Shown here piece by piece: positions 3,920 to 54,375 of a stretch of DNA of 64,000 nt. The stretch comes from Asterias amurensis (taxonomy: Eukaryota > Echinodermata > Asteroidea > Forcipulatida > Asteriidae). Numbering within the stretch: position 1 is the stretch's first letter; each line of letters opens with the position of its first letter. The DNA lies in NCBI RefSeq assembly GCF_032118995.1, contig NC_092666.1, forward strand, positions 14,272,501 to 14,336,500, in the 5' to 3' direction. The notes beneath the pieces are model-generated. The model made no database searches. It was not told the DNA's origin and worked only from the letters and a program-made list of their open reading frames with translations. The position numbers were made by a program, and so were the translations under genes.

Positions 3920-3946
3920 ATATCAAGTGAATACATGTTTGTGCAT

Positions 3947-4335
3947 TTAAAGGAACACGTTGCCTTGGATCGGACGAGTTGGTCAAAACAAAAGCGTTTG
4001 TAACCGTTTTTTATAAAATGCATATGGTTGGAAAGATGTTTTAAAAGTAGAATACAATGATCCACACAAGTTTGCCTCGAAATTGCGTGGTTTTCCTTCT
4101 ACTGTGCGAACTAACACGGTCGGCCATTTATGGGAGTCAAAATTTTGACCCCCATAAATGGCCGACGTGTTTGTCGACGAGGTAAAAGGAAAACCACGCA
4201 ATTTCGAGGCATGTTTGTGTGGATCATTGTATTCTACTTTTACAACATCTTTCTACCCATATGCATTTTATAAAAAACGGTTCGAACGCTTTTCAAAGAC
4301 CAACTCGACCGATCCAAGGCAACGTGTTCCTTTAA
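3947..4335. mobile_element. TTAA MITE, family T3 (copy 1)
   Basis: Bounded by TTAA on both sides. The two halves are long inverted repeats of roughly 190 bp, starting TTAAAGGAACACGTTGCC and ending with its complement. The centre is a near-perfect palindrome at about 4120-4165 containing CATTTATGG and CCATAAATG. Two more copies lie at 33819 and 40185. TTAA target duplication is the known signature of piggyBac-type transposition; no transposase is present, so the element is non-autonomous. Confidence 0.9.
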
Positions 4336-12789: not shown

Positions 12790-13985
12790 TAGGGTTAGGA
12801 TTTGGGGTTACGGTTAGGAATTGGGGTTATAGGATTAGGATGGGGTAAGCGTTGTGATTTTGGGGTTAGCGTTGGATGGGGGTACGGTAGGGTTGGAATT
12901 TGGAGTTAGGGCTTTGGGGTTAGGGTAAGGATGTGGGGTTAGGGCTGGTTGCGGTTAGGGTTGGGATTTGGGGTTAGGGTTGGGAATTGGGATTAGGGTT
13001 GGGATTATGGGGTAGGGTTGAGATTTGGGGTTAGGGTTAAAATTTGGGTTAAGGGTATGGATTTGGGGATGGGTTGGAATTTGGGGTTAGGGTTAGGGTA
13101 AGGAAATGGGGTTCGGGTTGGGATAGGGTTTGGATTTGGGGTTAAGGTTTGGATTTTGGGTTAGGGTTAGGATAAGGATTTGGGTTAGGGTTAGGGTTTA
13201 GGGTTAGGATTAGGGTAAGGGTTAGGGTTAGGGTAAGAGTAAGGGTTAGGGTTAGGGTTAGGATTAGGGATTTGGGTTAGGGTTAGGATTAGGATTAGGA
13301 TTTGGGTTAGGGTTAGGGTTAGGGTTAGGGTTAGGGTTAGGGTTAGGGTTAGGGTTAGGGTTAGGGTTAGGGTTAGGGTTAGGGTTAGGGTTAGGGTTAG
13401 GGTGTGGGTTAGGGTTAGGGTTATGGTCAGGGTTAGGGTTAGGGTTAGGATTTGGGGTTTGGGTTTGGGTTAGGGTTAGGGTTAGGGTTAGGGTTAGGGT
13501 TAGGGTTAGGGTTAGGTTAGGGTTAGGGTTAGGGTTAGGGTTAGGGTTAGGGTTAGGGTTAGGGTTAGGGTTAGGGTGTGGGTTAGGGTTAGGGTTATGG
13601 TCAGGGTTAGGGTTAGGGTTAGGATTTGGGGTTTGGGTTTGGGTTAGGGTTAGGGTTAGGGTTAGGGTTAGGGTTAGGGTTAGGGTTAGGGTTAGGGTTA
13701 GGGTTGGGTTAGGGTTAGGGTTGGGGTTAGGGTTAAGGTTAGGGTTAGTATTAGGGTTAGGGTTAGGCTGAGGGTTAGGATTTGGGTTAGGGCTAAGGTT
13801 AAGATTAGGATTTGGGTTAGGGTTAGGGTTAGGATTTTCTATTAGGGTTAGGGTTAGAGTTAGGATTAGGATTTGGGGCTAGGGTTAGGATTTGGGAAGG
13901 GTTAGGGTTAGGGTTATGGTTAGAGTTAGGGTTAGGGTTAGGGTTAGGGTTAGGGTTAGGGTTAGGGTTAGGGTTAGGGTTAGGG

Positions 13986-14344
13986 TTAATCGGTACAGAA
14001 AAAGAAAAAAAAGTTCACAGATTTACAAATAATTTACAGGGTTTACAGAAGGTAATGTTGAAAGACTTCTCTTGAAATATTAGTCCATGAAATGCTTTAC
14101 TTTTTGAGAAAACGGTAAAACAATATAAATTCTCGTTAGCGAGAATTGCGGATTTGTTATAAACACATGTCATGACACTGCGAAACGCGCGAAAACAGGA
14201 GTGGGTTTTCCCGTTATTTTCTCCCGACTCCGATGTCCGATTGAGCCTAAATCTCCACAGGATTGTTATTTTATATATAAGTTGTGTTACACGAAGTGTG
14301 GGACTTGGACAATACTGTTTACCGAAAGTGTATAATGGCTTTAA
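13986..14344. mobile_element. TTAA MITE, family T2 (copy inside telomeric array)
   Basis: The interior is the reverse complement of the copy at 32440-32799, including ATTCTCGTTAGCGAGAAT and the ACACATGTCATGACA segment. The right terminus reads AAAGTGTATAATGGCTTTAA. The left terminus has lost about 16-20 bp of the inverted repeat and begins TTAATCGGTACAG. TTAGGG repeats lie on both sides, so it inserted into the array. Confidence 0.9.
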
Positions 14345-15117
14345 GGTTAGGGTTAGGGTTAGAGTTAGGGCTAGGGTTAGGACTAGGATTTGGGTTAGGG
14401 TTTGGGTTAGGATTAGGATTAGGATTAGGGTTAGGGTAAGGGTTAGGGTCAGGGTTAGGGTGAGGGTTAGGATTTGGTTTAGGGCTAGGGTTAGGATTAA
14501 GATTTGGGTTAGGGTTAGGGTTAGGATTTGGATTAGGGTTAGGATTTGGATTAGGGTTAGGGTTAGAGTTAGGATTAGGATTTAGGTTAGGGTTAGGATT
14601 TGGGAAGGGTTAGGGTTAGGGTTAGGGTTAGGGTTAGGGTTAGGGTTAGGGTTAGTATTAGGGTTAGGGTTAGGGTTTGGGTTAGGGTTAGGATTTTGGT
14701 TAGGGTAAGGGTTAGGTTTAGGGTTAGGATTTGTGTTAGGGTAAGGGTTAGGGTTAGGGTTAGGATTAGGGTAAGGGTTAGAGTTAGGGTTAGGGTTAGG
14801 GTTAGGGTTAAGATTAGGGTTAGGGTTAGGGTTAGGGCTAGGGCTATGGTTAGGGTTGGGGTTAGGGCTAAGGGTTAGGGTTGGGGTTAGGGTAAGGGTT
14901 AGGGTTTAGGGTTAGGGTTAGTATAATGGTTAGGGTTAGGGTTAGGGTTGGGATTTGGGTTAGGGTTAGGGTAAGGGTTAGGGTTAGGGTTAGGGTTAGG
15001 GATAGGGTTAGGGTTAGGATTAGGGTTAGGGTTAGGGTTAGGGTTAGGGTTAGGGTTAGGGTTAGGGTTAGGGTTTGGTTTGGGGTTAGGGTTGAGATTA
15101 GGGATAGGGTCAAGGAT

Positions 15118-16719
15118 CCCAGGTGAAAATTGCAGTTGAAACCAGTTCAACTGGTTTTAACTGGTCCCAACTGGTCCAGTTGAACTGGGATTTGGTAACT
15201 TGTTTAACTGGTTTTCAACTGGTTTCGAACTGGTTTGACTTGTTTCGAACTGGTTTTAAACTGGTTTGACTGGTTTTGAACTGGTTTTACTGATTTGAAC
15301 TGGTTTTGAACTGGTTTAACTGGTTTCGAAATGGTTTAGCTGGTATAAACTGGTTTGTGACTTGTCTGAACTGGTTTTCAACTGGTACCAACTGATTTTG
15401 AGTGCATCAACTGTTGTCACCAGTTAGCAGGTTTGCTTAGATTATGACTGACAGACAGACAGTCTGACAAACATGTAGTCCGGCGGACAGCCAGTCAGTC
15501 TAAAACTTTTGTCAACATCACCAATGGTGCCATGATATTAGTCATGCTAAGATCAAGCACATTACTTTTGTAAGGTCCGATCCAAGTATACACTTTTTGG
15601 GCTTTGCTTTCTACCTATGGTGTGTAATTTTGAAGTGCGCTGACCAATATGATACACCAAAATTTGTTTTAGTTCATTTCTATACCAAATTATAACTACA
15701 TGTACATAAACTTACACACATTTAAGTGTAACTTTTGTTATACCTACAATGGTTTTGAATAAACATAGAGTTCTATATTTGTGCATAATTAATTAGATCC
15801 CGCCCATTTAATTCTAACAAAAATTAATTGCATTTATGTTTTTGTTCAGTATAATATTTATATACTTTAATTTGGGGACTAGTTCCAACAATGGTCTCTG
15901 TGGGTGAGAAAATCCAGTTGCTTAATTGGTTTCAACTGTCCCTGTTCATAAGAATTAGTGTGACCAGTTGGTAACTGGTTCCTTCAACTGGTTTTAACTG
16001 GTCCCTGTTCCTGAGAATAACCAGTTGGTAACTGGTTCCTCCAACTATATAATTTCAACTGGTCCCTTTGGTAATTATTTCCAGTTGGTAACTGGTTCTT
16101 TCAACTGGTTCCTGTTGACACCACATGAATGGCCAGTTGCTAACTGGTTCCTCAACTGGTTGCAACTAGTTCTTGTTGACACAACAAGAATTACAAGTTG
16201 GTAACTGGTTCCTTCAACTGGTTTGAACTGGTTCCTGTTTACACCACAATAATTACCAGTTGGCAACTATTTCCTTCAACTGTTTCAACTGGTCCCTGTT
16301 TACACCACAATATTACCAGTTGGCAACTACTTCCTTCAACTGGTTTCAACTGGTCCCTGTTGACACAACAAGAATTACCAGTTGGCAACTACTTCCTTCA
16401 ACTGGTTTCAACTGGTCCTCGTTGACACAACAAGAATTACCAGTTGGTAACTACTTCCTTCAACTGGTTTCAACTGGTCCTCGTTGACACAACAAGAATT
16501 ACCAGTTGGTAACTACTTCCTTCAACTGGTTTCAACTGGTCCCTGTTGACACAACAAGTACTACCAGTTGGTAACTACTTTCTTCAACTGGTTTCAACTG
16601 GATTTTCTTCAAACCAGTTGAATCCAACTGGTACTAGTTGGACACCAGTTAATTCCAGTTGAACCCAGTTGAAACCAGTTGACTGTTCAACTGGTTTCAA
16701 CTGGATTTTTCACCTGGGA
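15118..16719. mobile_element. TIR element filled with CAACTGG motifs, inside telomeric array
   Basis: The ends are inverted repeats: CCCAGGTGAAAATTGCAGTT on the left, and on the right the complement of CCCAGGTGAAAAATCCAGTT. Both sides abut AT and then TTAGGG-type sequence. The interior holds dozens of AACTGG/CCAGTT motifs in both orientations. A tandem block of 62-bp units runs from about 16080 to 16610 (CCAGTTGG starts every 62 bp near 16315, 16377, 16439, 16501 and 16563). About 15420-15900 is unique sequence without the motif. No transposase is visible. Confidence 0.85.
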
Positions 16720-17159
16720 TAGGGTTAGGGTTAGTGCTAGGGCTATTGTTAGGGTTGGGGTTAGGGTTAGGTGTAGGGTTAGGGGTAGGGATAGGGTTGG
16801 GGTTAGGGTTAGAATTAGGATTTGGGTTAGGGTTATAGGGTTATAGGGTTAGGGGTAGGGTAAGGGTCAGAGTTAGGATTAGTATTTGGGTTAGGGTTAG
16901 GGTTAGGGTTAGGGTTAGGGTTAGTATTAGGATTAGGGTTAGGGTTAGGGTAAGGGTTAAGGTTAGGGTTACAGGTACTGTTAGGGTTAGGGTTAGGATT
17001 TGGGTTTGGAATGGGATTCGGGGTTAGGGTAGGATTTGGGGTACGGTTCTAATTTTTGGTTAGTGTTGGGATTTGGGGTTTCGGTTAAAAAATAGTCATA
17101 GCTCTCACACTAAAAACCCTAACTCATAACATCCAACCCTTTCTCCTAAAACCCTCACC

Positions 17160-19665: not shown

Positions 19666-22600
19666 ATGGCGATGGAGAAGCAAGCTGTTATTAAGGACAC
19701 GCATCATCGTTCCGTAACGGCCGTTGGTTACCATCCGATGAGGCGGGAAATCCTGGCAGGATTCGAAGGTACTTTGTCCTGAAAGTCAAAGGGCCATGTC
19801 ACACGAGGAAACTTACAGGCAACCAGTTCTCAAAGAAAAGATTCAACTCACATTTGAATCTACTCATAATTTAATTGGGAATCGTAAGACATTGTTAAAA
19901 AGATACTCATACTGTGCTACAAAAGTGGTCCTGTAGCATCACTGTAAAGTTATTTGCCTCCAAGTTGCCTACAAAATTTGCCTCATGTGACAAGGCCCAA
20001 AGGCAGTGGACACTATTGGTAATTACTCAAAATAATTATTAGAATGAAACCTTTCTTGGTAACGAGTAATGGGGAAAGTTGGTTGTACATGTATAAAACA
20101 TTGTGAGAAATGGCTCCCTCTGAAGTAATGTAGTTTTTGAGAAAAAAAGTAATTTTCAATGAATTTGATTTCGAGACCTCAGATTTAGAATTTGAGGTCT
20201 CGAAAGCAAGCATCTGAAAGCACACAACTTCGTGTGACAATGGTGTTTTTTTTCTTTCATAATTATCTCGCAACTTCGACGACCGATTGAGCTCAAATTT
20301 TCACAGTTTTGTTATTTTATGCTTATGTTGAGATACACTGACTGTGTAGGCTAGTTTTTGACAATTAACGATAGTGTCCAGTGTCTTTTAATGCTACTGT
20401 TTTATTTATAAGCAAATTTATCAACAAAGATACAATAAAAGTCACCTTTGAAAGGGTAACCTTAATACAGTGTCTTCTCGTGGAGAAAGTAGCAACAACC
20501 ATCTCATCAAGAAAGTCAAATCCATCTAGGTTTAGTGAGGTGACAGTGACTACCAACTGAATCTCTGGCCGCAGTATTCGCAAACTGAAAAATAATAACT
20601 TGTGTTTTTTTGCCTTGAAGATGGAGTTATTAAAACATGGGAAGCTGAGGGGTCAAAGTTGGTTCTGACGACTTATGAACATCAAGGCTGGGTGACAGAT
20701 TTTCTTTATTGGTAAGTGGTCAACTAAAATGAGCCCAAGTTGCAACACTTTTGGGGTGACAGGTCTTCTTTTTTCAGCTGTGCCACGTATCTGGAACTCT
20801 CTACCACTTAATCTTAGATCTTGTCTTTGTACCACAGCATTCAAATCTCTTCTCAAAGCTCATCTTATGTCACAGGTTATCAAGGACTAATTTTGTTAAA
20901 AACCTGTGACATTATAAGACAAGATCCCTCCCCTCGATCTCCCCTCCCTAGCCTGGCAAATGGTTTTCAGTCTGAGCCCACTTCTGATGACCTGTTACTT
21001 TTGCTCCCGTTTGTTTGAAGGCATGGGAGACTATGTGCTTCTCCAAATGTTTCCCATTGACCGTTAGATTTGTCAATGGGAGTGCCCTTTTGCAAAAAGA
21101 AATCTGCCTTGCCCTCTCAAAAAATGAAATTCCAGACCTGTGATTACTGTTTCTAGAGTAACTTTTGAATCCCGTTTTTTTTTCAGGCATGATGGAAAGG
21201 TGATGTTCTCCTCATCCAACGATGGATTGATCATCGCTTGGTCGTCTGGAGGTGGCGTCTTTGACAGAATCAAGGTAGGTCTAATAATAGAAGACAATAC
21301 TTTGACATCAAATTGGCTGTTGCCAGCTTGGTGTTTAATATATCCCCTTGTGGGAGTTTGCTGAGTTCTCTTGAAATAAAGATCATCCAAACAATTAAAT
21401 TGTGGCAAGTTGTGGCTGAGTGGTTGAGAGCACTTGACACAAGGTCTGGTGTTTCTGATTATCAGACTGTGCGTTTGATCCATAGTTGCATTGTCTAATT
21501 CAGGTGTATACCCTTGTTGCACTGAAACAATCATTTATCAGTGATTTGACCAATCATTTGCAACTGTTAATAGACCAATCCATTAAGCTCTGTCCCATTG
21601 CGTATTGACCAATCACAACCCATTGCACAACCAAAAGTCCGACACTATAAACTCCATCATGTGTGCGCGTATGCTTGGCACACGCGGCAGAGTTGTACAG
21701 AATGGCATTGGAGAGGCTCACGTGTTCTTGCTCACACGTGCGCCGTGGGCGGAGCCAAATGAATCGGTGTATTGCCATTTGACCAAAGAGCACTGTGATG
21801 GCAACTGTTCTCATTCGTAGTAACTGTGGACTATTTGTTGGGAAACTTACAAATGTACATAGTATAAACACTCCATGTATGGCCAAAGTCTGAAATTATT
21901 TATTGACTATTTCCTTTCTAAATCTGTAATTTCTGTGTAGATTGGTTCTCCTGTTTACTGCATGGCATTAAACACACGCAGGCACCAGCTTGTTTGCGGC
22001 TTGAACGGAAGCATCAAAGTCTACAGCCTGGATGACAGTAAGTTATAACGCATAGAATTCAAACTTCTCCTGCTGACATACAAATCTCTTCACCAATCCG
22101 CACCTCACTATCTTCAAGATCTCCTTTATCCATATGTACCTCATCGTACCCTCCGCTCCAGCTCTACCTCTCAACTAGTCCCATACATCACTCGCACGAA
22201 GTCTTATGGCCACCGCTCATTCTCATATTCTTCACCCTCACTCTGGAACAACTTACCGCACAACATCAGAACTGCTCCGAACGAGAACATTTTCAAACAT
22301 CTGCTGAAAACTTACCTGTTTACTCATTAATTTTTGTAAAGCGCTTTGGGACTGTTGTGTGAAGTGGTATATAAGTGCCATTCATTATTATTATTATTAT
22401 AACCGTTCCTCAGAATCTATTCACACACTTTTATACTGTCGTAAACTCCTGGCTGCCACTTCCCAGGTTGTATCAAAAACTCCTGGCTGCCGCGTCCCAG
22501 GATGTATCAGAAACTTGGGGTGTGATCTGGGCCCGAGAAACCTGATACTTCACGGAGGCAACACAGGTCATTGTCTTGGTGCCCTTGAAATGCTCCGGTA

Positions 22601-25600
22601 GGAATTTACAACTTCCTCATAGGGTGCCCTTTACCATGGAGAAAATGCCGTGGTGCCCTTGCCCTTTCAAGAACCAAGCATACGGGCCTGGATCCCTAAC
22701 TACATGGCAGGTATTGGACAATGGCTTATGACTAGTACCCCCAAACAACGATTTTGCCAGTATATTCATCAAATTCACATATTTTATGTTATTCTTTTGT
22801 TCTGCAGAGAGAGAAAAGAGCAGCATTATTCAACTTGAAGATCCATTTATCTCTAGAGAGCACACCGACATTGTCAAGTGCATCGTATGTCTGGAGTCTC
22901 GTGTCTTCTCAGCAGGGTGAGTATACAAAATGCCAATTATTTTGGGAACAGACATACAGGGAACAGACTAAAGAAGAAGCTCCATGCAGGGGCTGGAGAT
23001 TTACACTAGACTGCAGGGCCTAGGCCATCAGTGATTTAAGCATTGGGTTTCCAGTAAACCCAAGACAGGACAAATCCGGCGGTCTTTTGTTTATGTTCAA
23101 ATGTTCATTTTTAGTCTGCCCAAATGGTTGTGGTACCCGCTACCAAAACATAGGCTTCAAACTGCCTATAGTTACCGGCCATCTTGTAGTCTAGTTGGTA
23201 AGACTTTGCACTAGAATTGCAAGGGTCGTGGGTTCGAATCCCACCCGAGTAATAGGCCTGTGATATTATTTCACAGGACTCGGGAAAGTACTGAGTATAC
23301 AGTGCTACACACATAGGTTTATGGAAAAAATAAAATTAATATTCTTTATCTCCGATGCAATGATTGTTTTCTCACATATTATTTAGATTTTTTTTCAGTG
23401 TATCATATAACTGACAGTTTTTTGTATGTTGATTGCTGCAAGCAAAATAAGCCTGTAGACATGAATCTCTGACTAAAAGTTTTTTTTTTTTTTCTCACTG
23501 AAAAAGCTTATTACAATTTGTATTGTATCTTTTGCAAAAGGTTTGACTGCAAGTTGATTATCTATGACTCGTCATCCTACCCTGGAAACAAAGGACTAAA
23601 TCCAGTCTTCTGGTAAGTGACCCCACCCCCCCTCCAAAAAAAAAAAAAAATGAGAAGGGAAAAAAACTATCCTTCCTTTAATGCAGTGGACAGTATGGGT
23701 AATTACTCAAAATAATTATTAGCATAAAACTTTACTTTGTGACGAGTAATGGGGAGAGGTTGATTGTATAAAACGTTGTGAGAAACGGCTCCCTCTGAAG
23801 TGACGAGAAAGAAGTAATTTTGAACAAATATGATTTCGAGACCTCAGATTTAGAAATTGAGGTCTCGAAGTCAAGCATCTGAAAGCACACAATTTCATGT
23901 GACAAGGGTGTTGTTTCTTTCATTATTATCTTGCAACTTCGACGACCAATTGAGCTCAAATTTTCACAGTGTTTGTTATTTTGTGCATATGTTGAGATAC
24001 AGCAAATGAAAAGACTGGTCTCTGACAATTACCAATAGTGTCCATTGTCTTTAATATGTACGCATAGTATAACCATTTCTTTAAAATAAAAATTAATACC
24101 ATTTTCCATATAATTTTTGCGCAAGCAACAATTTAAAACGTTTTTCTGCAAAAACAACTTTAATGTTACCATTTTTCTGCATCTCTATATGTGATGATTA
24201 TAACAAAACTAATGGTGTGAACAAATTGTTGATTGTTCAATTGTGCAAAATTTCATTTCCATATCTTCACTGCATGTTTCTATTCATAACGTTGTACTGC
24301 ATTTCATATTTTTTATTTCTTCATAAATGCATCTTTGGATCTCATCGTGTCATGACAGTAAGTCTATCAATAAAATGTGTTTTTCCCACCACTTTTGTGT
24401 CTGTTGTAAGCTGCACCAATAAAATAATTTGTATCTACATATTACCCATGCAACGATGTAAAACAATAATTACTGAGCAGTTTGACTGATTTATGTGTTG
24501 ACCACCATTTTTGATTACAAGGCAAGCTCAGAATTTCTGTCCTAGCTGTTTAAGTGAAGAAAACTTACACCCGGAGTAGACACATGCACAAGCTAAAATT
24601 CCCAGCCAAAAACCTGTGAAATTCGTTTCACTTAAGCGCGGAATTTCCTGCTGTGTAAGCGCTGACTCGTTGCTAATAATGGTAAGCAGACCTAAGGTCC
24701 TGATTCATGGCTCTGCTTACCCCTGCATTTTGCGCTTATGATCTCCATTCTCTGCTTATAGGGCAAGCATTGCATTTCTGCCCTAGCTGATGTGTAAGCA
24801 AAGAATGCCTTTATTTCTTGGAAATAGCTTGACGTAAGCATGTAACTCCCTGCTCCCGTTAGCACAAACTCTGTCTAGTCAAGTTCAACTATCATTGACT
24901 AGACACTGTAGGAGGGTTGATGTGCTTTGTAAATTCATCACCATTATGATATCAAAGTACTGGCTGGCCAAGCCTAATTACTATTGAACACTGATTTATT
25001 TTGCTAATGATCCAACATTGTGAGGCTTAATTAAGTGTGCGTCATGAATTTGTTGTTGACTTCTAACTCCTGTTTTTTCATCGTAACAGTAATCCTAAAG
25101 CCCATGATGCTGGAATATCCTGCCTGGCTCTGGTCAAAGATACAGAGAATAACACATTGTAAGAACATCAAAATACTCTTTTACTTTGTTCCTAGGGGCA
25201 TCATTTTTTCTCACAACGTGCTTCTTGCTTATACATTGTAGCCTCTTAAAAAAACACAAAAACATAGCTAAGCAAAGCAAAGTTATCCTTACCAGAAAAA
25301 GGTTACCAGCTAAAATAGTATTTCACTTTGTAGCAGAATTGTCTTAAGCAATATTTTCTACTTAAGCAGCTCTATGAAGTTGGGCCCTAGTATTGTTTAA
25401 CTACAATGTGGCGGTAAACAGCTTTTTTTTAACCTCGGCCTGTGGCCAATCCACTCTACATGCTTGCTCAGGTATGGTAGCCCAAAATCATTCCGGTCTG
25501 ATAATAAAATGTCTGCCGAAAGTCAAGAACTATTTTGCGGATAAACTTGTCAAGTGCTTAAAAATAAAAAAAAACAAAAGTGGAAGTGAGCTTGTAAACA

Positions 25601-28600
25601 ACTTACTTGATAATTCCAACATGACCCCTCATTCACCTCTGACCCTAACTTCCTCCCCTTCATTCACCTCTGACCCTAACTCCCCCCCCCCCTTTTATAG
25701 GCTCGTCACCGGATCATTTGACAAGGTCGTTAAGATCTGGTCTCAGGACGGCAAACTAACCCATCGCCTGGACGGTTTTGTGTCAACAATAACGGATTTA
25801 TGCTACTCACCAAAGAATAAGACGCTATGGGTTGCCAGTGGATTGCCAACGGCTACCTTGTACGATCCCAAGTCTGGTGAAAACGTATGTAGTCTTTGTG
25901 TCTACTTTTCTCTGTTATCTTTAAAACAAATCTTGTTCGAAAGTCAGTAGTATTTGTCTTTGTTTCTCCTTGGTAAGGCTTGTAAAGTTGTATATTTTAC
26001 ATAGATCACTGTATAATACTGTTGTGAATGGCGCTATATGGTTATCCTATAGCAACATTCGGGGAATATTTACCGAATAGGTCAGTTGCTTGTTCTGAAG
26101 CCTGGGGGTTGAGAGGAACTCTAAGGAGACACACAAGCACACAGGATGGTTTCAGGAATACGACTGGCGTGGCCAGGGCTTGCTTGGTGCACGCCCCAGT
26201 CACTCCTGACTGGTTTATTGCTTAACCTCATCACCTGGTGCAATCGCACATTATAACAATACTAAATTCAATAGTGATAATATATCTCCTTTGTTTTCAC
26301 ACTTCTATTCTCACAAAATGTTGTTGTGAAGTCAAAGAAAAGTATCACTTGCTTTACCCTCTTTAATATTTTAGGTGACAGATTTCATCTTTGCGATGTG
26401 TTTCATTTCTTCTATTTTTTAATCTTGGTTAAACTTGTATCTTTTCCAAAAATCACCAGACAGTCTACTAAATCCAACAGAAAAAACATAACTGTTTGTA
26501 TCTGTTGTAACAAAAAGTTAACACTAATTTTGTCACAAATTTTCTTGGAATACAATGACAGTGTCTCTTGTACATTTTTTTAATTATTCAGGTGACAGAT
26601 TTCATCGGGACATTTCAGGAGGAAGAAGAAAACGAGAAATATCATCTGCACATCTTGAAATATATTCCAGAAATCAACGAAGTCATCGGTAAGAGGACGG
26701 GATGTCTAAAGGTTCCTTACAATAAATAATCAAGCAATTTATAGTAACATGTTATGTTTTATATTTTGGTTACACTTGTATCTTTTACAAAAACCACAAG
26801 GAAAAATGTTTTTTTGACGAAAATTAAAAGTTGACGTAAATTATTCGCAAGTTTGATGTATTCTTATTTCAGCAAGTACGAGTCGTAGACATTTGATGAT
26901 GTGGAAGTACAATCCGTCTGGATGCATCACGGCACTGAAATGCAAGCACGCTGTGGAGTGTCTCACATACAGTAAGTCTGTCTATTTGTTTGTCTTACTG
27001 TTTGTTTCTCTGTTTGTTTATCACGGCGCTGAAATGCAAACATGCTGTGGAGTGTCTCACATACAGTAAGTCTGTCTGTTTGTTTGTCTTACTGTTTGTT
27101 TCTCTGTTTGTTTATCACGGCGCTGAAATGCAAACATGCTGTGGAGTGTCTCACATACAGTAAGTCTGTCTGTTTGTTTGTCTTACTGTTTGTTTCTCTG
27201 TTTGTTTATCACGTCGCTGAAATGCAAACATGCTGTGGAGTGTCTCACATACAGTAAGTCTGTCTGTTTGTTTGTCTTACTGTTTGTTTATCACGGCGCT
27301 GAAATGCAAACATGCTGTGGAGTGTCTCACATACAGTAAGTCTGTCTGTTTGTTTGTCTTACTGTTGGTTCTCTGTTTGTTTATCACGGCGCTGAAATGC
27401 AAACATGCTGTGGAGTGTCTCACATACAGTAAGTCTGTCTGTTTGTTTCTCTGTTTGTTTATCACGGCGCTGAAATGCAAACATGTTGTGGAGTGTCTCA
27501 CATACAGTAAGTCTGTCTGTTTGTTTGTCTTACTGTTTGTTTCTCTGTTTGTTTATCACGGCGCTGAAATGCAAACATGCTGTTGACAATGGTGGAGTGT
27601 CTCACATACAGTAAGTTTGTCTGTTTGTTTGTCTTACTGTTGGTTTCTCTGTTTGTTTATCACGGCGCTGAAATGCAAACATGTTGTGGAGTGTCTCACA
27701 TACAGTAAGTCTGTCTGTTTGTTTGTCTTACTGTTTGTTTCTCTGTTTGTTTATCACGGCGCTGAAATGCAAACATGCTGTGGAGTGTCTCACATACAGT
27801 AAGTCTGTCTGTTTGTTTGTATGTCTTACTGATTGTGTCACTAGGGTTTTAGGGCTGAGTGTTTGAAGCATTGAATTCAAGTTCTGGGGGTTAAGTCAAC
27901 GGAGTGTACATGTAGGTTGGAGTTCTGGTGAGCAAAGTGCTTTACTATAATTGCTTCTATTCACCCAGGGGTATAAATTGGTACCTGCGAGGGTAGAGCT
28001 TGATATTGTGTATGGGAAGTCCTTCAGAGCGCCACGGCAGCTCAGGGCTGTATACTCCCTGGGGAGCTGAGAAAGATTAAAGGGATATTATTGGCCCATT
28101 GACCAGGGGACTAATGTAAAGCGCATTGCTAGGTTATTGTAAAATGTGCTGTATAAGAACTAGTTATTATCATTATTTCAGCTCGGAAGGTTCCAATTCT
28201 GATTTTTGATGGTGGGAGTGACGGCCAAGCTAACAAATGGGAAAGACTCCAGTCTAACCACTTCATGTACAGGTGAGTTTGGTTCTGCAAGTTTCATTTG
28301 TTGACAAACAAAACGAAATAAAATAAGACACCCAGCCCATAGGTCACCAATACAATAAGACACCCAGACCAAGAGACACTCAGCACCCAGAGCATAACAC
28401 ACCCACTCGCCCCTCTAGCTCTCACCAGTCCCTGGCCAGGAAAATCCCTTGACCAAAACTGTTAAACATTGTTGCCATGCCCATTGCCCATACAAATACC
28501 TCGCTGAATGGTTTTATTCTCAATATATAATTAACAGTGCTTATTACATTGTTAATTACCAGAATCTCTCTTTTACCAAGTTTGTATTTTAAAATGCCCG

Positions 28601-31600
28601 TATGAACTTTATAGTTTTAATTACATGTATTGTTCTCATATTTTTAAAATGTATTAAAGCCATGTGTTATTAAAGACACTGGACACTATTGGTAATTGTC
28701 AAAGACCAGTCTTCTCACTTGGTGTATCTCAACATATGCATAAAATAACAAACCTCTGAAAATTTGAACTCAATTGGTCATCGAAGTTGCGAGATAATAA
28801 TGAAAGAAAAAACCACTGTTGTCACATGAAGTTGTGTGCTTTCAGATACTTGATTTCGAGACCTCAAATTCTAACTCTGAGGTCTCGAAATCAAATTCAT
28901 CGAAAATTACTTCTTTCTCGAAAACTACGTTACTTCAGAGGGAGCCGTTTCTCACAATGTTTTATACTATCAACAGCTCCCCATTACTCGTTACCAAAGT
29001 TTTTATGCTAATAATTGTTTTGAGTAATTACCAATAGTGTCCAGTGCATTTAATGTCAATAATGTCCTTTTATATTGTCTAATTCTTAAATTGTGGCGTC
29101 AGGAGATTAACTTGAGAATAATTTAGTTAACTTTTTTTTGTAATCCATAAGGGGTGCTACTTTTGTTGTTTTCTCTTCTATGAGTACGTTAATGTTTTTT
29201 TATCATTCTTTTTGTTTGTACTTTGCATTTTTATCTGTGTACATGTAAGTAATTATTAAAATGAAATACCTTGACAATCTCTCCACAGCAAAGAAACGTT
29301 TCTATTGGCCGAGGCTAAGAACAAGTTAGCTCAAGTAATGAACTTGAAGAAGGAACCATGCCAGCCCGTTCAAATCAGCTCAGTGGTTCGTAACGTCAGC
29401 ACGCAAGTCGGCAGCCATTACACCCTTAACAAACCAGATAATAAGGTAGATTTTTCATTTTTTTTCTTTTTCATTTTTATAAATAATGGTTTATTTTTGC
29501 AAAAATGTCTTATGGTTACTGAAGGGTAGAAAACAGGAGAATAGGCACATGAAATAGAATGGAAAAGAGGAAAATTGAAAAAAAAAAATTTTTTTTTGGG
29601 GGGGAAACAAGTATTTCACAGATTAAAATTACACATTGTTTTTTGTTCAGTAGTAGTCAAACCACTACTTTGTACATGTTTCTGCAGCCTACAGACCACC
29701 AGAAGCACTATCACCCAGCTCTTCTTAAAGCAACTTTTGCTGAGGATCTTGATCTACTCTTGCTCGGGTCGGAAGACGGCAACATTTGTAAGTGCCAACT
29801 CAAACCTTCCTCTCATGTCAAAATGTTTTGCGCTGTCCGGTTTTACCCACTTTACTGTCAGACTGTTGCGTGTTGTGGTCGAACGGTTTAGTGCCTCGAA
29901 CTCAAGTTCTGATTGCCAAGTCATCAGGGTGTGGGTTTGAATTCCGGTCATGACACTGACCTGTGTCCTTAAGCAAGACGCTTTAAGGGTCTGGGTACTT
30001 TTTGTAGACCAAAAAAACACAATGTTTAAGATTTACATTAATCTTACACAGTTTGAAGATAATGATGGTAGAAAGCTCCCTGAAAATATTACTAGCTGAG
30101 GTGCTGTAGTTTTTGAGAAATGAATAAAACAATGTCATGAAAATAATTTTTGTCTCACTGATCATGAGCATGTAAAAATTATTTCAGCATGTAAAAACGT
30201 TTTTTCATGACATTGTTTTACTCATTTCTCAAAAAAATACAGCACCTCAGCAATTAATATTTTAAGGTACGCTTTCTACTATCATCTTCAATCGGTGTAA
30301 GTTTAATGTAAATCTGTGGACACTGTGTATTGTGTTACAAAAAGTACCCCAATTCTTTAGAGACAGTGGACACTATTGGTAAATGTTATACACCAGTCTT
30401 CTCACTTGGTGTATCTCAACATATGCATGAAATAAAAAACCTGTGAAAATTTGAGCTCAATCGGTCGTAGAAGTTGCGAGATAATAATGAAAGAAAAAAC
30501 ACCCTTGTCACACGAAGTTGTGTGCGTTTGGATGGTTGATTGTGAGTCGAAATCAAATTCGTGGAAAATTACTTCTTTCTCGAAAACTACGTCACTTCAG
30601 AGGGAGCTGTTTCTCACAATGTTTGATACTATCAACCTCTCCTCATTACTCATAATCAAGAAAGGTTTTATGATGATAATTATTTTGAGTAATTACCAAT
30701 ATAGTGTCCACTGCCTTTAATATAAATGCCTCTCTTCAGTAAGCGGGTAATTGTGAGGGCAGAGACTGTTATTGTGACTGATACAGCTTGATGCGCTACA
30801 TAGTTGGCACTGTTAAGCATGTTAAGAGATAAAAAGAATACATTCTGAAATCCTGAATATCATTTCTGCTTTGTGTTTCTTTGTTTTGCTGTCCTCTTAT
30901 AACAACATTAAGGGAGTAAAAGGGTAGCGACTCGTTCTTTCACAGCCTTTGAGAACCGGCAGGGTCTTGCCGTGTGATAAAGGCCCGAGCCTTCGGCTCG
31001 GGCCTTTATCACACGGCAACGACCCTGCAAGGTTTTAAACGGCCGTGAAAGAACGAGTCACTACTCTTTTATTCCCATTCATAAATGCCCTTTTGGTTAA
31101 AAGGCGTAATAAAGTAAGAAACTCTGTAAAACTTATCTGTTTCTGACGTGCTTGAGGTCTGTATGTACATGTACGACGTCCATGTGTTGCATTGTTCTGA
31201 CTGAGACGCCTCTATTTACGACAGTTTCCGGCTCCGTTCGTGCGCATGCGCATATGGTCTTGGTGCAACACGTTCTTGTTTTCCTTTCACACACAGCACG
31301 GCCAACTCACCGACAGAACCCGCATCGCCCGTAACAAGAAACGTCTTGCACCAAGACTAGCGCGGAGTATCCGCTCACAACCAGTTATAAACACTGGTCA
31401 TTATCAAAAGTTTAAACACCCCCACGTGACGCGCTCTCCACAAAATAGGAATAGCGAAACTGTCTGAGGTATTTATGAATCCTGTTTTACAACATTCCTG
31501 TTATAAAGAGGCTCTGTTTATAAAGAGTACATTCTGAAGTCTCGAATCTCATTTCTGCTTAGTGATTGTTTGTTTTTGCTGTCCTCATATAGCAACATTC

Positions 31601-34600
31601 CTGGATTAGAAGCAAAAACAATATTATTTATTATTATCATTATTATTATTGTTATTATTTCATGATAGATGTTTGGGGGTTTGATGACGCGGCCGTCAAC
31701 GCTCTACAGAATATGAAGCCAATGGGAATGCCAGAGCTTGTTAAGAAGTACGCTGTGCTACTCAATGATGACTCAGAGCTACTGGCTGATAGTGGTCTCC
31801 ATCAGACTGGCATGATGGACAATCAAGTAAGAACATTTAACCATCAGAAGACTCTCATCTGCTTGTAACCTTGATGTTGCCTTCAGGCCTTGTGTGCCTG
31901 GCGACTTGCCAACAAAAAATATTAAAACTTTATGGTGTTTGATATCGTTTAAACCAAAGTTTATATAATACAACCTGTGAAGCAGCAGGAGAAAGGATAA
32001 CATTGAGGGGATTTGACTTTTTATTTCAAATCTCAAGTAATAACCCACATGGGAAACTGTCTATATTGGCAGTGTCCAATTGTTTATAGTGGTAATGCTC
32101 ACAGTACAACAAACAGTTTAAACCAATAGTTTGACCAATGACAACATTTGTTTTTGAAGGCTCAGGACTCTGTGACCAATCGAGTGGCAGGTTTCATCTG
32201 TAAGAATGTTCTGATTGGCCACAGTAGCTGTGTGACATGCTTGACCCTGATTGGAGGAGAGAGCGGCTATGACACAACGTATTTAGTAAGTCAAAAATTT
32301 TTTTTTTTTTAAATCAGTTGTTGATGAAGAACACGAACTGAGCTTCAGTACTTATTATTCCTCTATAATCTTGGTTTATGTTCCATTGAGGTGACCAACC
32401 ATTTGAAACCAGTCAATCATAGTGTTTGTGGCGCAGAGGTTAAAGCCATTGGACCCTTTCGGTAAACAGTGTTGTCCAAGGCCCACACTTTGTGTACCAC
32501 AACTTCTATATCAAATAACAAACCTGTGAAAATTTAGGCTCAATCGGTCATCTGAGTCCGGAGAAAACAACGGAAAACCCCACCCTTGTTTCCGCGCGTT
32601 TCGCCATGTCATGACATGTGTTAAAAATAAATCCGTAATTCTCATTAACGAGAATTCATGTTGTTTTGCTGTTTTCTCAAAAAGTAAAGCTATTTCAAGA
32701 GAAGTCTTTCCCCATTGCCTTCTGTAAACCCTGTAAGTTATTTGTAAATCTGTGAATTTTTTTTTTTTTCTCTGAACCAAAAGTGTATAATGGCTTTAAG
32801 AGCACCGAACTCAAACTCTGGTGTTTCTGATAAGCAGAGTGTGGATTTGAATCCAGGCCGTGGCAATTGTATCCTCAAGCAAGATACTTTACTACAATTG
32901 CTTTATTGCTTAATCCTTTGGATGGGACTTACGTAGGTCCTGTGTACTAGGATTGGTAATACATGTAAAAGAAAACAGAGCACTTGTCGTTGAAGAGTAG
33001 CGGTTAACCCAGGTGTTCCTGGTTCACATACATAATAAATTGGGGGGCTAATCATCCTTACTCGCAGCTAAGAGCTGAATTGCTAAGGATGCGGTAACAA
33101 CAAGTTTGAGAAGCAGGCATGCAAGGGCGCCTTTGGCAGCCGGCCACATCAACCCACGGAGCACAACCAAGATCAAAAGTGTTTGATTTTAGAAGAGGGA
33201 GGGAAACAGGATAGTCTGGAAAACCCTCGTGGCATAGCAGAGAACCAACGCACAACTCAACTCACATATGGCCCTGGCCGGGAATCGAACCGGGGTCACC
33301 TTGGTGAGCGGCGAGCGCTTTACGCACAAGCCAACCATGCCACCATACATGTAGTAAGCACTGTTGTTTACAGGTTTCCTTCGGCTTGCGAGTTACAGCG
33401 ATGAAGTTCACTTATGAGGTGTCCTTTGTTTTTTTACAAGAAATGTTTGGTGTATCCCTGAATTAATCACATTTTTTTGTTTACAGTTGAGCTCCGGATG
33501 GGACAGAAGAATTTGCATATGGAATTTGGAAACTGGAAAGTGAGTTTTGCTACGTCTGTGTTGATATTTGGTTTTTAATATTTCTGTCTGTCGTTCCACC
33601 AGTCTCTCGTCTCTCTATTCTACTATCATGTCTTTAAAGTTAGATCACAATGATTTTGTCATTCTGCATAATTCCTTCTTGTCATTTAAATTACGTTGGT
33701 GATTTGTTTTTTTGTTGCTTGGGCATTTCAATATACACCTCCCTTTTACTCCATATTGGTTTACTCCTAATCCATTTCATTAACAAACAAAAATATCAAT
33801 TATTAAAATGTCTTTGGTTTAAGAGAACACGTTGCCTAGGATCGGACGAGTTGGTCTACAAAAAGCGTTTGAAACTGTTTGTTATAAAATGCATATGATT
33901 AGAAAGATGTTTTAAAAGTAAAATATAATGATCCACACAAGTATCACTCAAAATTGCACGGTTTTCCTTTTACGTCGCGGACTATCGCGGTCGGTCATTT
34001 ATCATGGAGTCAAAATTTTGACCCCCATAAATGGCCGACCGTGTTATTGGACGAGGTAAAAAGAAAACCACGCAATTTTGAGGCATATTTGTGTAGATCA
34101 TTGTATTCTACTTTTACAACATCTTTCTAACCATATGCCTTTATAACAAACAGTTACAAACGCTTTTCAAAGACCAACTCGACCGATCCAAGGCAACGTG
34201 TTCCTTTAATGTTCATTCTTTTCCTTACATTTTCCGCAAAGATGGAAATGCATATAGAAATCAATGTCAAATTGAATTGAATTGATTATCTTTTCTTATA
34301 TGTGTTTGTCGTCAGGCTTCATGATACATTTCGGAACACATCGCCGGATTCTTTTGAAGTCCAGGAGTTGGCTTGTGATGGTATTGTCATTGACATGGAC
34401 TACAGTAGTCAAAGGTTAGACTTTATTTGTAAATATCTCTATTTGTAGTTTTTCTTTGTTTCTGAGTATATATTTTCACTTGAATTGGTTTTTGTTTTTA
34501 GTATGAACTCACAGCAACTGTTTATTTTTAAACAAATAGCATATTGTCCTATTTGTCGATATATTTTTGGGTCATTTTCAATTGCAAATATTTTATGAGA

Positions 34601-37600
34601 AATTTCGTTCTTTCTTTTTCAACCTCTGAAGCTTAAATTTTGTTCTTACCCAATACATCGATATATATATTCAGTATTTTCCTGAGATCTGTGAAAAAAA
34701 TCAATTTGCATTTTTTTCACAAAACACCCGAGTATACAAAGCTTAGTACACATCGGTGTAAGGGTAAAAACAAACATTATACAAAAATGAGTATACAGTG
34801 CTAACACACATCGGTGTATGGGTACCAAAGTTAATATTCTTTATCCCCGATGCAAATTTAACATTTTGTACATCGTTGCGGTACCCGCTGCCAAAACATA
34901 GGATTCGAACTGCCTCTTGCTGCCGGGCAACCTCGGTAGGCTTGTTGGTAAGACACTGCTCTAGGATTGCAAGGGTCGTGGGTTCGAATCCCACCCGAGT
35001 AATATGCCTGTGATAATTTTTCACAGGACTCTGGAGTATACAGTGCTAACACACATCGGTCTATGGGTAAAAACCAAAGTTAATATTTTTTATCCCCGAT
35101 GCAAATTTAACATCTCTTACAACAATATTTATTTTTTCCATCTTTAGAAATGAGTTTGCCTACGCGTCTAGCGACAAGATGGTTTACATTCGTAGCTTTG
35201 AACCGGATGGTAGCAAGATGCGTCTCACCAATACCTTACAAGGTCATGATGGTGAGATCACTCAGGTCAAATGGTCCAGGACAAGACGAAATTGGATCAC
35301 TGCCTCTGAAGATGGAACAATCCGTGTTTGGGTGAGTGGCACAGTTCTCTTGGGTTTTATGAGCAGAAGGTGATCTCTTTTTAATAAGACCACTTCCCGG
35401 GTAAACCGGCATGTTAATCTGATTTTGAAGCATAGGACACTCAGAAAAGCGAACTTAATCACTTTGTTGGAAAGAGACTAAGAAGGACGTTTCAGTTTTA
35501 CATGTGGGAGGGAAACCATACAGAATTATTTTCACGCAAAACACCCGCAGTCAGGTAGGGACTGAAAACCTAATCTATATAGTTCCCTGGCGTGATTCAA
35601 AACCAGGGCCCTAGTTGGGGGAGGCGAGAAAAGAATACCACTAAAGGCCAGTTTTTAGTCGGTCGCGCAATGGAAATCTTGACGCGAAATCATAAAAAGA
35701 CACAGTTTTTAAGGCCTCAGTCTAGGGATCGCACGCAAGATTTCCATCGCACAACCATCGCGCGACCGACTATAAACCGGCCTTAAGCCAACCTGACCAC
35801 CCTTGCATGTCTATCATGATAGATAGCTATAGAAAAATAATACTAATAATTTATTGGTTTTGTATTGAGCTCTCTTCACGACCAGCCTGTTCGAGGGCGC
35901 ATAACAGAACACCATAAAACAACAAAGAGCTGAAAAAACATGCAACATTGGTACATGAAAGCATTTAAAAAGCTCACAATCAAACAAAAACCAAAAATCG
36001 ACAGATACAAAACTCACTGACATTAATTAGTGCACATTAATAAAGGCTTTCTTAGAAAGGAAAGTTTGAAGGTGTGATTTGAAAAGACTTTGAGAGAATG
36101 CAGTAAACGAATATGAGATGGCAAGTTGTTTCATAGACGAGGTGCTGCCGGATAAAAAGCTTGATTTCCTAAAGTAGTAAGCTTTTTGCCCTTCGGATAT
36201 TCAAAATAGATAAAATAGTTAATTAAAAAACTGTCCTCACAGCACAAAAGCTAAAATAAAACAAATTTTCACTTTGAAATAGTCAGTTGTTTTTTCTTAT
36301 TTGCAGAGTGGTGATGGTATGACATGTTTGCAAGTCCTGGCCGCCCATGGTTCGGTTACAGCGCTCTGCATTGATGCATATAATAGCTGCATAGTGGCCG
36401 GTGTCCAAAACACAATCAAGTGAGTACATTCATCAAGGAGACAATTTATATGTAATTTGTATTAAAGACACTGGACACTATTGTTAATCACTCAAAATAA
36501 GTGTTACTGTACCACAAACTTTGCTTGGAAACAAGCGATGGAGAGCTGTTGACAGTAAACAGCATTGTGAGAAACAACTCTCTCGGCTGAAGTATTTTAT
36601 TGTGCAACTGTAAGCACACAAAGTAATGCAGCAAGGGTGTGGTTTCTTTCATTATTCTCTTGCAAATTCGATGACAAATTAAAGACACTGGACACTATTG
36701 GTAGTTGTCAAAGACCAGTCTTCTCACTTGGTGTATCTCAACATATGCATAAAATAACAAACCTGTGAAAATTTGAGCTCAATTGGTCGTCAAAGTTGGG
36801 AGATAATAATGAAAGAAAAAACACCCTTGTCACACACAGTTGTGTGCTTTCAGATGCTTGATTTCGAGACCTCACTTTCTAAACTTGAGGTCTTGAAATC
36901 AAGTTCGTGGAAAACTACTTCTTTCTCGAAAACTAGGTCACTTCAGAGGGAGCCGTTTCGCACAATGTTTTATACTATCAACCTCTCCCCATTACTCATT
37001 ACCAAGTGAGGTTTTTTGCTGATAATTATTTTGAGTAATTACCAATAGTGTCCACTGCCTTTAAGCCCAAATTTTCACAGGTTTGTTATTTGTATGCATA
37101 ATGTTTGGCTACACCTAGTGAGAAGACATTTACTAAACGTGTTCAGTGCCTTTAGAGGCAATGTATTGCTTTTGTTTTAAGGAATCGTTTTTATTGTATT
37201 CTAATATTGTTACTGTTTTTATTTTTGCAGTGGTGCTCATTTCATGATGAATGAACACAATGTGTAATTTCAGACTTTCTTTGTGTAGCTCTATCTGCGT
37301 TGTGTATTTTCTTCATAACATTTGTGTTTTGATATTACTTGCATATTAATTTGTCTATTTTCTTTCAGACAGATTTTTATTTTTTTTTCATGAAAGTATT
37401 CTAGATGCCCAGCTGCCCTGGGTGTGATTTTACCGCTTACCAAAGACAGTTGAAAATAAATAGAATGCAATCATGCAACTTCCAGCTTTTTATCAGCTGA
37501 ATTCCTTTTTTTCCCCCTGTTTTTTGTGCCACAGAAAACTTAACAATACTGTGCAAAAGATGTTTGTGCGTGGTAGTTTCTCTTCCTCCCCCCCCCCCAA

Positions 37601-39264: not shown

Positions 39265-39380
39265 GCCCCCCACCCCCCCTCTCCCGTTCTCCCAACCCTC
39301 AATCCGTCAAAATAGAGAAAATCTGTTAGGAAAGTATCATTAGCCCATTAGATAGAATGGTATGCTTGCTGATATGATGA

Positions 39381-39796
39381 TTAAAGGCACTGGACACTGT
39401 TGGTAATTAATCAAAATAATTGTTAGCATAACAACTTTCTTGGTAACGAGCAAAGCAGAGCTGATGATAGTAAAAAATAAATTGTGAGAATTGGCTCCCT
39501 TTGAAGTAAAAGTAATTTTTTTAGAAAGAGGTAAGTTATCACTCAAATATTTGAATCTCATCAGAGACTTCAGGCCTGAAGCCTTTTTCTGGCATCTAGA
39601 AGCACAAAACTTTGTGCAGAGAGTGTGTGTTTTATTCTTTCATTATTCTCTTGCAACCTCGAAGACCAATTGAGCCCAAATTTTCACAGATTGGTTATTT
39701 CATGCATATGTTGGGATACCCCATGGAGGTAGAAATTTATACCCCAAGTGAGAATACTGGTCTTTGACAATTACCAAAGGTGTCCGGTGCCTTTAA
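39381..39796. mobile_element. TTAA MITE T1 in probable 3' UTR
   Basis: TTAA boundaries, starting TTAAAGGCACTGGACACTGT and ending TGTCCGGTGCCTTTAA. It lies 117 bp after the WD40 stop codon and before any good AATAAA. Confidence 0.85.
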
Positions 39797-40036: not shown

Positions 40037-40184
40037 TGGCACTTCTGTAGAATAGGTCTTTGTGAGTAAAAGGTGTAAATTAATTTAAACATTCCGTCCA
40101 AAATGATTTTTTTTACACAAAATGCTTATTGATACATTTTAGATTAAGAAGACAAGTTTTTCTGACCTTTTTGGAAGAAGACAT

Positions 40185-40547
40185 TTAGAGGAACACGTTG
40201 CCTTGGACCGGTCGAGTTGGTCTATGAAAAGCGTTTGAAACAGATGTTGTAAAAGTAGAATACAATGATCCACACAAGTATCACTCAAAATTGCACGGTT
40301 TTCATTTTATGTCGCGAACTAACACAGTCGGCCATTTATGGGAGTCACAAATTTGACTCCCATAAATGGCCGACCATGTATGTCGACGAGGTAAAACGAA
40401 AAACCATGCAATTTCGAGGCATATTTGTGTAGATCATTGTATTCTACTTTTACAACATCTTTCTAACCATATCGACTTTATAACAAACGGTTACAGAACG
40501 CTTTTCAAAGACCAACTCGACCAATCCAAGGCAACGTGTTCCTTTAA
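40185..40547. mobile_element. TTAA MITE, family T3 (copy 3)
   Basis: Same inverted halves and CATTTATGGGAGTCA...TGACTCCCATAAATGGCCG centre as the other copies. The left end is TTAG, the right TTAA; the left arm has lost about 25 bp. Confidence 0.88.
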
Positions 40548-50322: not shown

Positions 50323-50354
50323 GGGGAATTCTAAATCCACAAGGATCTTATAGT

Positions 50355-50675
50355 ACACTGCAAATCACGTTGGTCAACATTTGCCGCACTTTTTTGCCCA
50401 ACGTTGGTTTAAATATCAACTGACTAGGCATAACATAACCAACTGTGGTTGGGCAATAACTTTTATCCAATAGTTGGGCAAACAGTTTGACAAAACCAGT
50501 TGGTCAAATCATTTTACCCAGCAGTTGGGTAACTTTTGACCAATAGTTGGGCAAGTTTGTTTACCATTATGTTGGTAAAAATGTTACCCAATAATGTAAT
50601 CAGTTGATATTTAAACCAACGTTGGGCAACCGTGTTGGGCAAAGGTTGCTACCCAACAAAAGCAGCAATGATTGA
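50355..50675. mobile_element. fold-back element filled with GTTGGGCAA motifs
   Basis: Perfect inner inverted repeats CCCAACGTTGGTTTAAATAT (50398) and its complement (to 50623). Outer arms GTTGGTCAACATTTGCC and GGCAAAGGTTGCTACCCAAC are imperfect. The interior has many GTTGGGCAA, GTTGGTAAA and TTGACCAA phrases in both orientations. Exact ends are uncertain. Confidence 0.7.
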
Positions 50676-50721
50676 TTGTTTGTTGGTTACTCTTTGTTCA
50701 ATGGTTGGTTGGGCCAAATGA

Positions 50722-50775
50722 CAAAAAAATACCAGTTGATCGTCCGGATTTTTCCAAAAAGATGAAGATGAGGGC
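50722..50775. repeat. inverted copy of the segment at about 19545-19595
   Basis: AATACCAGTTGATCGTCC and TTTTTCCAAAAAGATGA match the reverse complement of sequence just upstream of the WD40 gene. It marks an unclassified dispersed repeat end. Confidence 0.65.
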
Positions 50776-54199: not shown

Positions 54200-54375
54200 C
54201 CACTTTCCCGAGTCCTGTGAAAAAATATCACAGGCATATTACTCGGGTGGGATTCGAACCCACAACCCTTGCAATTCTAGAGCAGTGTCTTAATACCAAC
54301 TAGACAACCGAGATTGCCCGGTAGCTGGAGGCAGTTCGAATCCTATGTTTTGGGAGCGGGTACCGCAACGATATA
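54200..54375 (-). mobile_element. tRNA-derived SINE, family S1 (minus strand)
   Basis: Reads on the minus strand: GGTACCCGCTCCCAAAACAT leader, A-box-like TAGTTGGTATTAAGAC, B box GGGTTCGAATCCC and the CCTGTGATATTTTTTCACAGG hairpin. It has the leader seen also at 23125 and 34875. Confidence 0.85.

Follow-up and report, generated by a model that had tools for sequence, protein, structure and literature searches.

A Probable Non-Autonomous EnSpm/CACTA-Like DNA Transposon with Subterminal AACTGG Arrays in a TTAGGG Repeat of Asterias amurensis

Structure of the Element

The window, by which we mean the whole 64,000-nucleotide stretch of the Asterias amurensis genome analysed here (C19:14272501-14336500), contains, at positions 15118-16718, an element of 1,601 bp whose inverted ends read CCCAGGTGAAAA and TTTTCACCTGGG. 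It lies in a degenerate, telomere-type TTAGGG array that is present on both flanks (12917-15110 and 16716-17006; Tandem Repeats Finder, period 6), as the initial annotation had reported; the contig is 15.77 Mb long, so this array is not at a contig end. The array is the site of insertion and is not part of the design of the element. The main features, in window positions, are as follows.

12917-15110, no strand: interstitial TTAGGG-type array, left part, the insertion target (Tandem Repeats Finder, period 6)
15116-15117, no strand: 2-bp target duplication AT, left copy (flank comparison)
15118-15151, plus strand: left terminal inverted repeat, beginning CCCAGGTGAAAA (exact 12-base ends in nine of nine full copies)
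15142-15430, plus strand: left subterminal array, chiefly plus-strand AACTGG (motif count)
15431-15930, no strand: motif-poor middle of about 500 bp, without a long open frame (motif count, frame list)
15931-16684, plus strand: right subterminal array of AACTGG and CCAGTT (motif count)
16099-16601, plus strand: 62-bp tandem block within the right array, 8.2 units (tandem repeat call)
16685-16718, minus strand: right terminal inverted repeat, ending CACCTGGG (inverted-end match)
16719-16720, no strand: 2-bp target duplication AT, right copy (flank comparison)
16721-17006, no strand: TTAGGG array to the right of the element (Tandem Repeats Finder)
42642-43989, plus strand: second element of like design, with ends CCCACACAGCA, an ACGTCA-type motif and a TA duplication (end and motif match)

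The boundaries first proposed, 15118-16719, hold on the left; on the right the element stops one base earlier, at 16718, and 16719 is the first base of the AT duplication. Its inverted termini pair over 36 nt with 92% complementarity (15116-15151 with 16685-16720, flanking AT included). Counts of AACTGG (42) and CCAGTT (19) give 61 motif copies against 1.9 expected and a maximum of 9 among 500 order-1 Markov sequences built from the element's own dinucleotides. The interior thus has a gross excess of the motif, but its description as almost entirely motif was too strong, overall coverage being 32%. Motif letters (at most one mismatch) make up 52% of 15118-15430, 6% of 15431-15930 and 41% of 15931-16719. 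The extended form CAACTGG occurs 23 times in the element and three times across the rest of the window. The 62-bp tandem block noted earlier is present (90% match between units), and no open frame of 120 or more amino acids was found in the element.

Full-Length Copies and Target Sites

When the host genome (491.5 Mb, 23 contigs) was searched with the window element, nine copies of full length were found, one of which is the window element itself. They are 1,595-1,823 bp long and hold 60-71 motif copies each, and both 12-base ends occur without mismatch in all nine, bearing out the expectation that the paired inverted ends would recur across the genome. Mean pairwise divergence among the nine is 2.2% (0.8-3.6%) over aligned bases; they reflect recent spread. 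The BLAST identity of the eight other copies to the window element is 75-80%, a low value that probably comes from out-of-register alignment of repeats. Copies differ by gaps of 62, 124 and 186 bp close to the 62-bp block, and 246 bp found in other copies are missing from the window copy.

All nine are flanked by 2-bp duplications (AT, CA, CT, AG, AT, TA, AT, AA and CA), with the third flanking base unequal in every case. At one copy on C4 (C4b), the joined flanks, with one duplicate removed, match a paralogous repeat unit over 152 bases at 97.4% identity without a gap. Joined flanks of the other (C4a) are gap-free against a neighbouring unit free of the element, over the bases shown around the junction. 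A paralogous unit also aligns at the C8 copy, with a one-base gap 13 bases from the junction, and the joined flanks of the C5 copy show a one-base difference in or near an A run. The equal flanking bases and the empty sites indicate a target duplication of two bases with no fixed sequence. Together with the exact ends, these data confirm an element with terminal inverted repeats, and they contradict a simple satellite, a reading that the initial annotation had also set aside and that we have dropped.

For three of the nine full copies the junction falls inside a tandem array (Tandem Repeats Finder), and for the C5 copy it lies 22 bp from one; the other five, and the 15-kb relative described below, have no array within 50 bp. 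The array-associated copies are as follows.

C8:20640061-20641669: junction inside an array, 24 bp
C4:13255543-13257356 (C4a): junction inside an array, 21 bp
C5:6464642-6466343: junction 22 bp from an array with a 16-bp unit
Window copy: junction inside the TTAGGG array, 6 bp

Positions within 50 bp of an array account for 7.7% (window without its TTAGGG region) to 12.4% (L018-L044, loci that hold family repeats) of the background sequence. Against this background, four of nine copies near an array has a probability of 0.003-0.018, calculated for an idea formed after the data were seen; as a post hoc lead, the family may prefer tandem arrays for insertion. The array surrounding the C5 copy has CCCAGGTGAAAACATATTCAAGTGAACTCG units at positions 1384 and 3717 of locus L008 (and at 626 and 4490 with one mismatch), the first 12 bases of CCCAGGTGAAAACATATTCAAGTGAACTCG being the same as the element's end, which may be a coincidence or may reflect recognition of the target.

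Short and Old Members of the Family

With up to three mismatches allowed, the end pattern CCCAGGTGAAAAWYCCAGTTGAAACCAGTT matches the genome 141 times in forward and 160 times in reverse orientation, and not at all when read backwards. Among the approximately 100 matches listed, most of those with two or three mismatches come from a subfamily whose ends read CCCAGGTC. This subfamily forms at least eight facing end pairs 260-357 bp apart, six of them at 270-276 bp (among the matches listed), and all eight have 2-bp duplications: CC, AA, CA and TA in one set of four, and AA, TT, AA and TT in the other. These figures refer to paired ends, four pairs having been read whole and four at the ends. The copies of about 270 bp hold 9-11 motif sites. 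A 2-bp duplication is thus found in all 18 copies with intact ends (nine full-length copies, the 15-kb relative and eight of the CCCAGGTC subfamily).

Older partial copies have CCCAGGTG-like ends. Candidate end pairs were absent at 13 of 27 partial-match loci (L018-L044); two equal flanking bases were seen in one of the 14 candidate pairs, which is the chance level, and two of the 14 have identical flanks and represent one duplicated insertion. These copies are degenerate, and we draw no conclusion from their flanks.

A Transposase-Bearing Relative

A 14,960-bp element (C10:9548254-9563213) has the same ends as the window element and a GT/GT target duplication. It contains 169 AACTGG/CCAGTT motifs, of which 119 lie in its first 1.5 kb, 43 in its last 0.96 kb and seven in the 12.5 kb between. 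Positions 1-284 of the window element are 80% identical to its left end and positions 857-1601 are 78% identical to its right end, in collinear order; for the window element's central 500 bp, the matches listed include no counterpart in it. Its transposase gene consists of two frames (9558358-9559428 and 9559432-9560406) with one TGA between them. Read with X at the stop, the product matches Pfam PF02992 (Transposase family tnp2) at 29.1 bits (cut-off 28.6); taken alone, the first piece gives E = 0.12 and the second has no match. The initial annotation had proposed looking for an autonomous relative whose matching ends enclose a transposase. Such a relative was found, but its gene, the sole transposase gene found between CCCAGGTGAAAA ends, is broken by the in-frame stop.

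In a genome search for PF02992, four places lie above the cut-off (seven candidates scored): the gene of the 14.96-kb element, its tandem duplicate, and two stop-free frames of 755 amino acids on C3 and C11. The C11 protein (370 of its 755 residues were read) scores 42.0 bits for PF02992 and is 41% identical to the transposase of the 14.96-kb element. The acidic, C(2)C and H(3)H motifs of the two proteins align, with SDGVPIF, CVDAPAR, GCSLC, NVHSLTH and FPFES in the transposase facing TDGVPIF, TVDTVAR, GCGFC, NVHLLLH and FMFED in the C11 protein. In the transposase, CVDAPAR and FPFES flank CSLC and HSLTH on either side, with the catalytic acidic residues assigned by eye. The second piece of the transposase has 24 matches in the genome, and a search of solved structures with the second half found nothing. 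Stop-free frames were seen for the relatives at C11:18129487, C3:27820004, C10:13470957, C7:17461741, C10:8114402, C10:12981908 and C10:14075620. A 10.84-kb tandem duplication, 99.7% identical (C10:9557263-9578934), repeats the right part of the element together with the stop codon.

Four further loci were considered and rejected. C10:9277858-9308759 has facing ends, but its flanks are AA and AT, and at its left end the right end of the 14.96-kb element is repeated in inverted orientation (163 bp, 99.4%); on these two grounds we did not treat the region as an element. The right part of the 14.96-kb element does occur in it a second time (2.3 kb, 88.7%). Three candidate autonomous copies (C2:10825000, C4:16025000 and C13:11130000) have two, zero and one frames of at least 150 amino acids, respectively, with no match to a Pfam transposase. 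Separately, a TCCGACA array with two inverted arms was seen at C10:9289502-9290265 (L058), perhaps another element with a private motif; a frame for a Ulp1-like protease (PF02902, 30.3 bits) and a transposase-like frame lie near it.

Five frames of at least 110 amino acids besides the transposase were scanned in the 14.96-kb element. One of them (C10:9552220-9552681, or L053:6220-6681; 154 amino acids, minus strand, opposite to the transposase) matches the BEN domain PF10523 at 26.4 bits (cut-off 23.2); the other four have no Pfam match. Its best match among solved structures is a weak one to BEND6 (E = 0.37). One other match was found in the genome (four candidates scored), at C10:9303842-9304117, 41% identical and with two stops. 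This second frame is flanked on one side by tnp2-like fragments (9297751-9300408) and on the other by the right end of an incomplete second family copy (9305711-9308759), and is about 4-5 kb from that right end. Both places with a BEN frame, C10:9552220 and C10:9303842, therefore hold the AACTGG family; they are 250 kb apart on the same chromosome and differ in the order of their parts, and the BEN frame may be part of a nested insertion in the 14.96-kb element. BEN is a DNA-binding domain, and CCAATTGG-like palindromes are among the targets of BEN proteins. The sequence CCAGTTGG, contained in the array units, occurs 11 times in the window element. The BEN frame of the transposase-bearing relative points to a candidate motif-binding protein.

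Other Motif-Rich Places and Features of the Window

A recurrence of the same design in unrelated sequence at 42642 and 50355, as a general type of element, had also been suggested. At 42642 this is borne out: the element there has paired ends (CCCACACAGCA), a different motif (31 ACGTCA/TGACGT in 42642-43989) and a TA duplication, and likewise starts with CCC. Both of its ends are present at two of the eight loci fetched (the window and L066), with duplications TA and AA. The end pattern has 17 genome matches against six for a reversed control, so several of the 17 are due to chance, and none of the eight end matches with zero or one mismatch lies within 100 kb of a place matching the second transposase piece. 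The stretch at 50355 is motif-rich and recurs, but the window copy has no right inverted end. This GTTGGGC-rich sequence has many relatives in the genome; the two that were read have a common left boundary (TACACTGCAAA) and remain alike beyond their only right inverted match, and paired ends were not established in either. The general type is thus supported by 42642, but not by paired ends at 50355. Window positions 50330-50800 recur at C19:14344398, 14392326, 14419366 and 14446168 (92-96% identity, two over the full length and two over 357 of 471 bases), all within about 124 kb, so this neighbourhood looks like a local duplication.

Two repeat families of about 390 bp are abundant, with several copies each in the 64 kb: a palindromic one (3946-4335, 33818-34209 and 40182-40547) and a second (19999-20388, 23676-24059, 28669-29053, 30357-30720, 36678-37064, 39380-39796 and 60817-61192). 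A 94-bp tandem array (26926-27820, 9.7 copies) overlaps a frame with a repeated ITALKCKHAVECLTYSKSVCLF-type unit. Two frames are exon-like, one WD40-like (25378-25950, plus strand; 24.7 bits, under the cut-off of 27) and one resembling calcium-binding EGF (61899-62324, minus strand; 29.5 bits, over the cut-off of 27). Matches to tRNA at 23180-23252, 34930-35002 and 54239-54314 share a repeat, about 170-240 bp long, that is probably a SINE derived from a tRNA, and the window also has a match to the histone 3′ stem-loop.

Classification

On the characters of its transposase, protein motifs, duplication length and subterminal repeats, the family belongs with the EnSpm/CACTA group, within the CMCT of PMC12730594. 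The CMC clade is described there as having C(2)C and H(3-4)H motifs between the second D and the last E and target duplications of 2-5 bp. The 14.96-kb element encodes a tnp2-type DDE transposase (29.1 bits, with the stop read as X) in which both motifs occupy this position, by residues assigned by eye. The duplication is 2 bp in all 18 intact-ended copies (against one of 14 old short candidates), and 162 of the 169 family-specific motifs of the large element lie in its terminal 1.5 and 0.96 kb. Without exception the nine full copies have CCC..GGG termini, as does the 15-kb element, in contrast to the CA..TG ends of most CMCT members, which PMC12730594 gives as holding "in most cases" and which are hence not strictly defining. 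Having CCC..GGG instead of CA..TG, the family is named here as an EnSpm-like variant.

Resemblance to the plant elements En/Spm, Tam1 and Tgm, as described in PMC2613891, extends to the tnp2-type transposase with a short target duplication, to asymmetric subterminal arrays of one family-specific short motif in direct and inverted orientation, and to non-autonomous derivatives that retain the ends. En/Spm makes a larger product, the transposase, and a second one that binds the subterminal repeats; these repeats are family-specific in sequence and act as cis signals, and deletion derivatives can be moved in trans (PMC2613891). Such a second DNA-binding product is a possible further likeness, TNPA in the plant and the BEN frame here; if real, however, the product here has a BEN domain and is encoded on the opposite strand. 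Plant members have CACTA termini, in contrast to the CCC..GGG found here, and the host here is an animal. The present family also differs in its 2-bp duplication, that of Tgmt being 3 bp, and in the density of the motif, with 61 copies in 1.6 kb. The common bean element pvCACTA1 is non-randomly placed, with telomeric enrichment by cytology, but it has an AT-rich target, 3-bp duplications and fewer centromeric copies (PMC4938662). Among the literature matches listed, no title or abstract opening names the AACTGG family; it may be catalogued in Repbase or Dfam.

Mobilisation and the Role of the Arrays

In our estimate the window element is a cut-and-paste DNA transposon that is non-autonomous and owes its movement to an EnSpm/CACTA-like (CMC-clade) transposase acting in trans, with a probability of roughly 0.85. 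Two other kinds of element were weighed. A foldback or MuDR/P-type element resembling Galileo/Tetris of Drosophila, with repeats inside long inverted ends, would account for terminal repeats followed by internal tandem repeats, and some repeats beside the ends of Galileo are extra transposase-binding sites (cited in PMC4079207). We regard it as very improbable, since Tetris has 8-10 bp duplications (PMC4079207) and these elements have foldback arms and a suggested transposase of another superfamily, whereas here the duplication is 2 bp in 18 of 18 copies, the third flanking base differs in nine of nine full copies, and the transposase of the relative is tnp2-type. An element of the ISL2EU or Tc1/mariner kind, which would duplicate AT or TA, is suggested by the AT beside the window copy and by the two-base length of the duplications, and is less credible still. 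The duplications also include CA, CT, AG, AA, TT, CC and GT; TA is found at one of nine full copies, and the fixed AT within A|AT|T described for ISL2EU (PMC4482050) contrasts with the varied sequences here. Between the same ends there is a tnp2-type (PF02992) gene, not the THAP transposase and YqaJ of ISL2EU, and no YqaJ or THAP match was found in the five other frames of at least 110 amino acids that were scanned in the 15-kb element, outside the array frame 9562471-9562983.

By a strict search pattern the arrays appear confined to the family. A 29-base array pattern (up to three mismatches) has 67 matches in the 491.5 Mb and none in a reversed control, and all 67 lie inside elements, 40 in the nine full copies and 27 in the left array of the 14.96-kb element. 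The initial annotation had held that CAACTGG arrays lying mainly without these termini would speak against it; the reverse is seen with this strict pattern, which leaves looser arrays uncounted. A few looser matches lie without clear ends (for example, at L024 and L042).

By analogy with En/Spm, the AACTGG arrays probably serve as docking sites for proteins by which the element is mobilised. Amplified binding sites, as the initial annotation had suggested, are the best reading because the 14.96-kb relative keeps the motif almost solely in its subterminal regions. The arrays could instead be a passive minisatellite by-product of slippage or unequal exchange in an element with terminal inverted repeats, with no role in transposition. 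The number of 62-bp higher-order units does differ among copies, and satellite expansion out of foldback-transposon repeats is reported for Tetris (PMC4079207). We consider this unlikely, given the 162 of 169 motifs confined to two subterminal regions of the transposase-bearing relative and the motif shared by the 1.6-kb, approximately 270-bp and 15-kb members. Motif letters also vary less among the nine copies than other array letters (0.52% versus 0.93%; Fisher p = 0.027), a weak point because the copies are related and not independent and the repeats were aligned with gaps.

For the arrays as docking sites, the proposed sequence of events is that a protein of the 14.96-kb relative, either the transposase or a TNPA-like BEN product, would bind the tandem AACTGG/CCAGTT sites next to the ends, and the bound sites would join the two ends of the element. 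Elements without genes that retain the ends and arrays would stay mobile, and the window element would have been moved by proteins supplied in trans. The binder of these putative sites may be the BEN-domain product rather than the transposase. From the patterns above we infer the binding, the end pairing, the requirement for the arrays and the identity of the binder; the length of the array differs in 62-bp units among copies that have all moved. A wider reading, conceivable but doubtful, is that these elements represent an animal EnSpm-like branch with CCC..GGG ends, in which a BEN protein in the role of TNPA binds a greatly amplified, family-specific subterminal motif and motif and protein coevolve family by family, with AACTGG in the present family and ACGTCA in the one at 42642.

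Elements packed with a short motif and without coding sequence easily stay unclassified; here, one of them can be linked to EnSpm/CACTA by its ends and target duplications, by empty sites and by a relative that carries a transposase gene. The family may offer an animal system for the role of subterminal site number, since its natural copies run from members of about 270 bp, which hold 9-11 sites, up to members of 1.6-1.8 kb, which hold 60-71.
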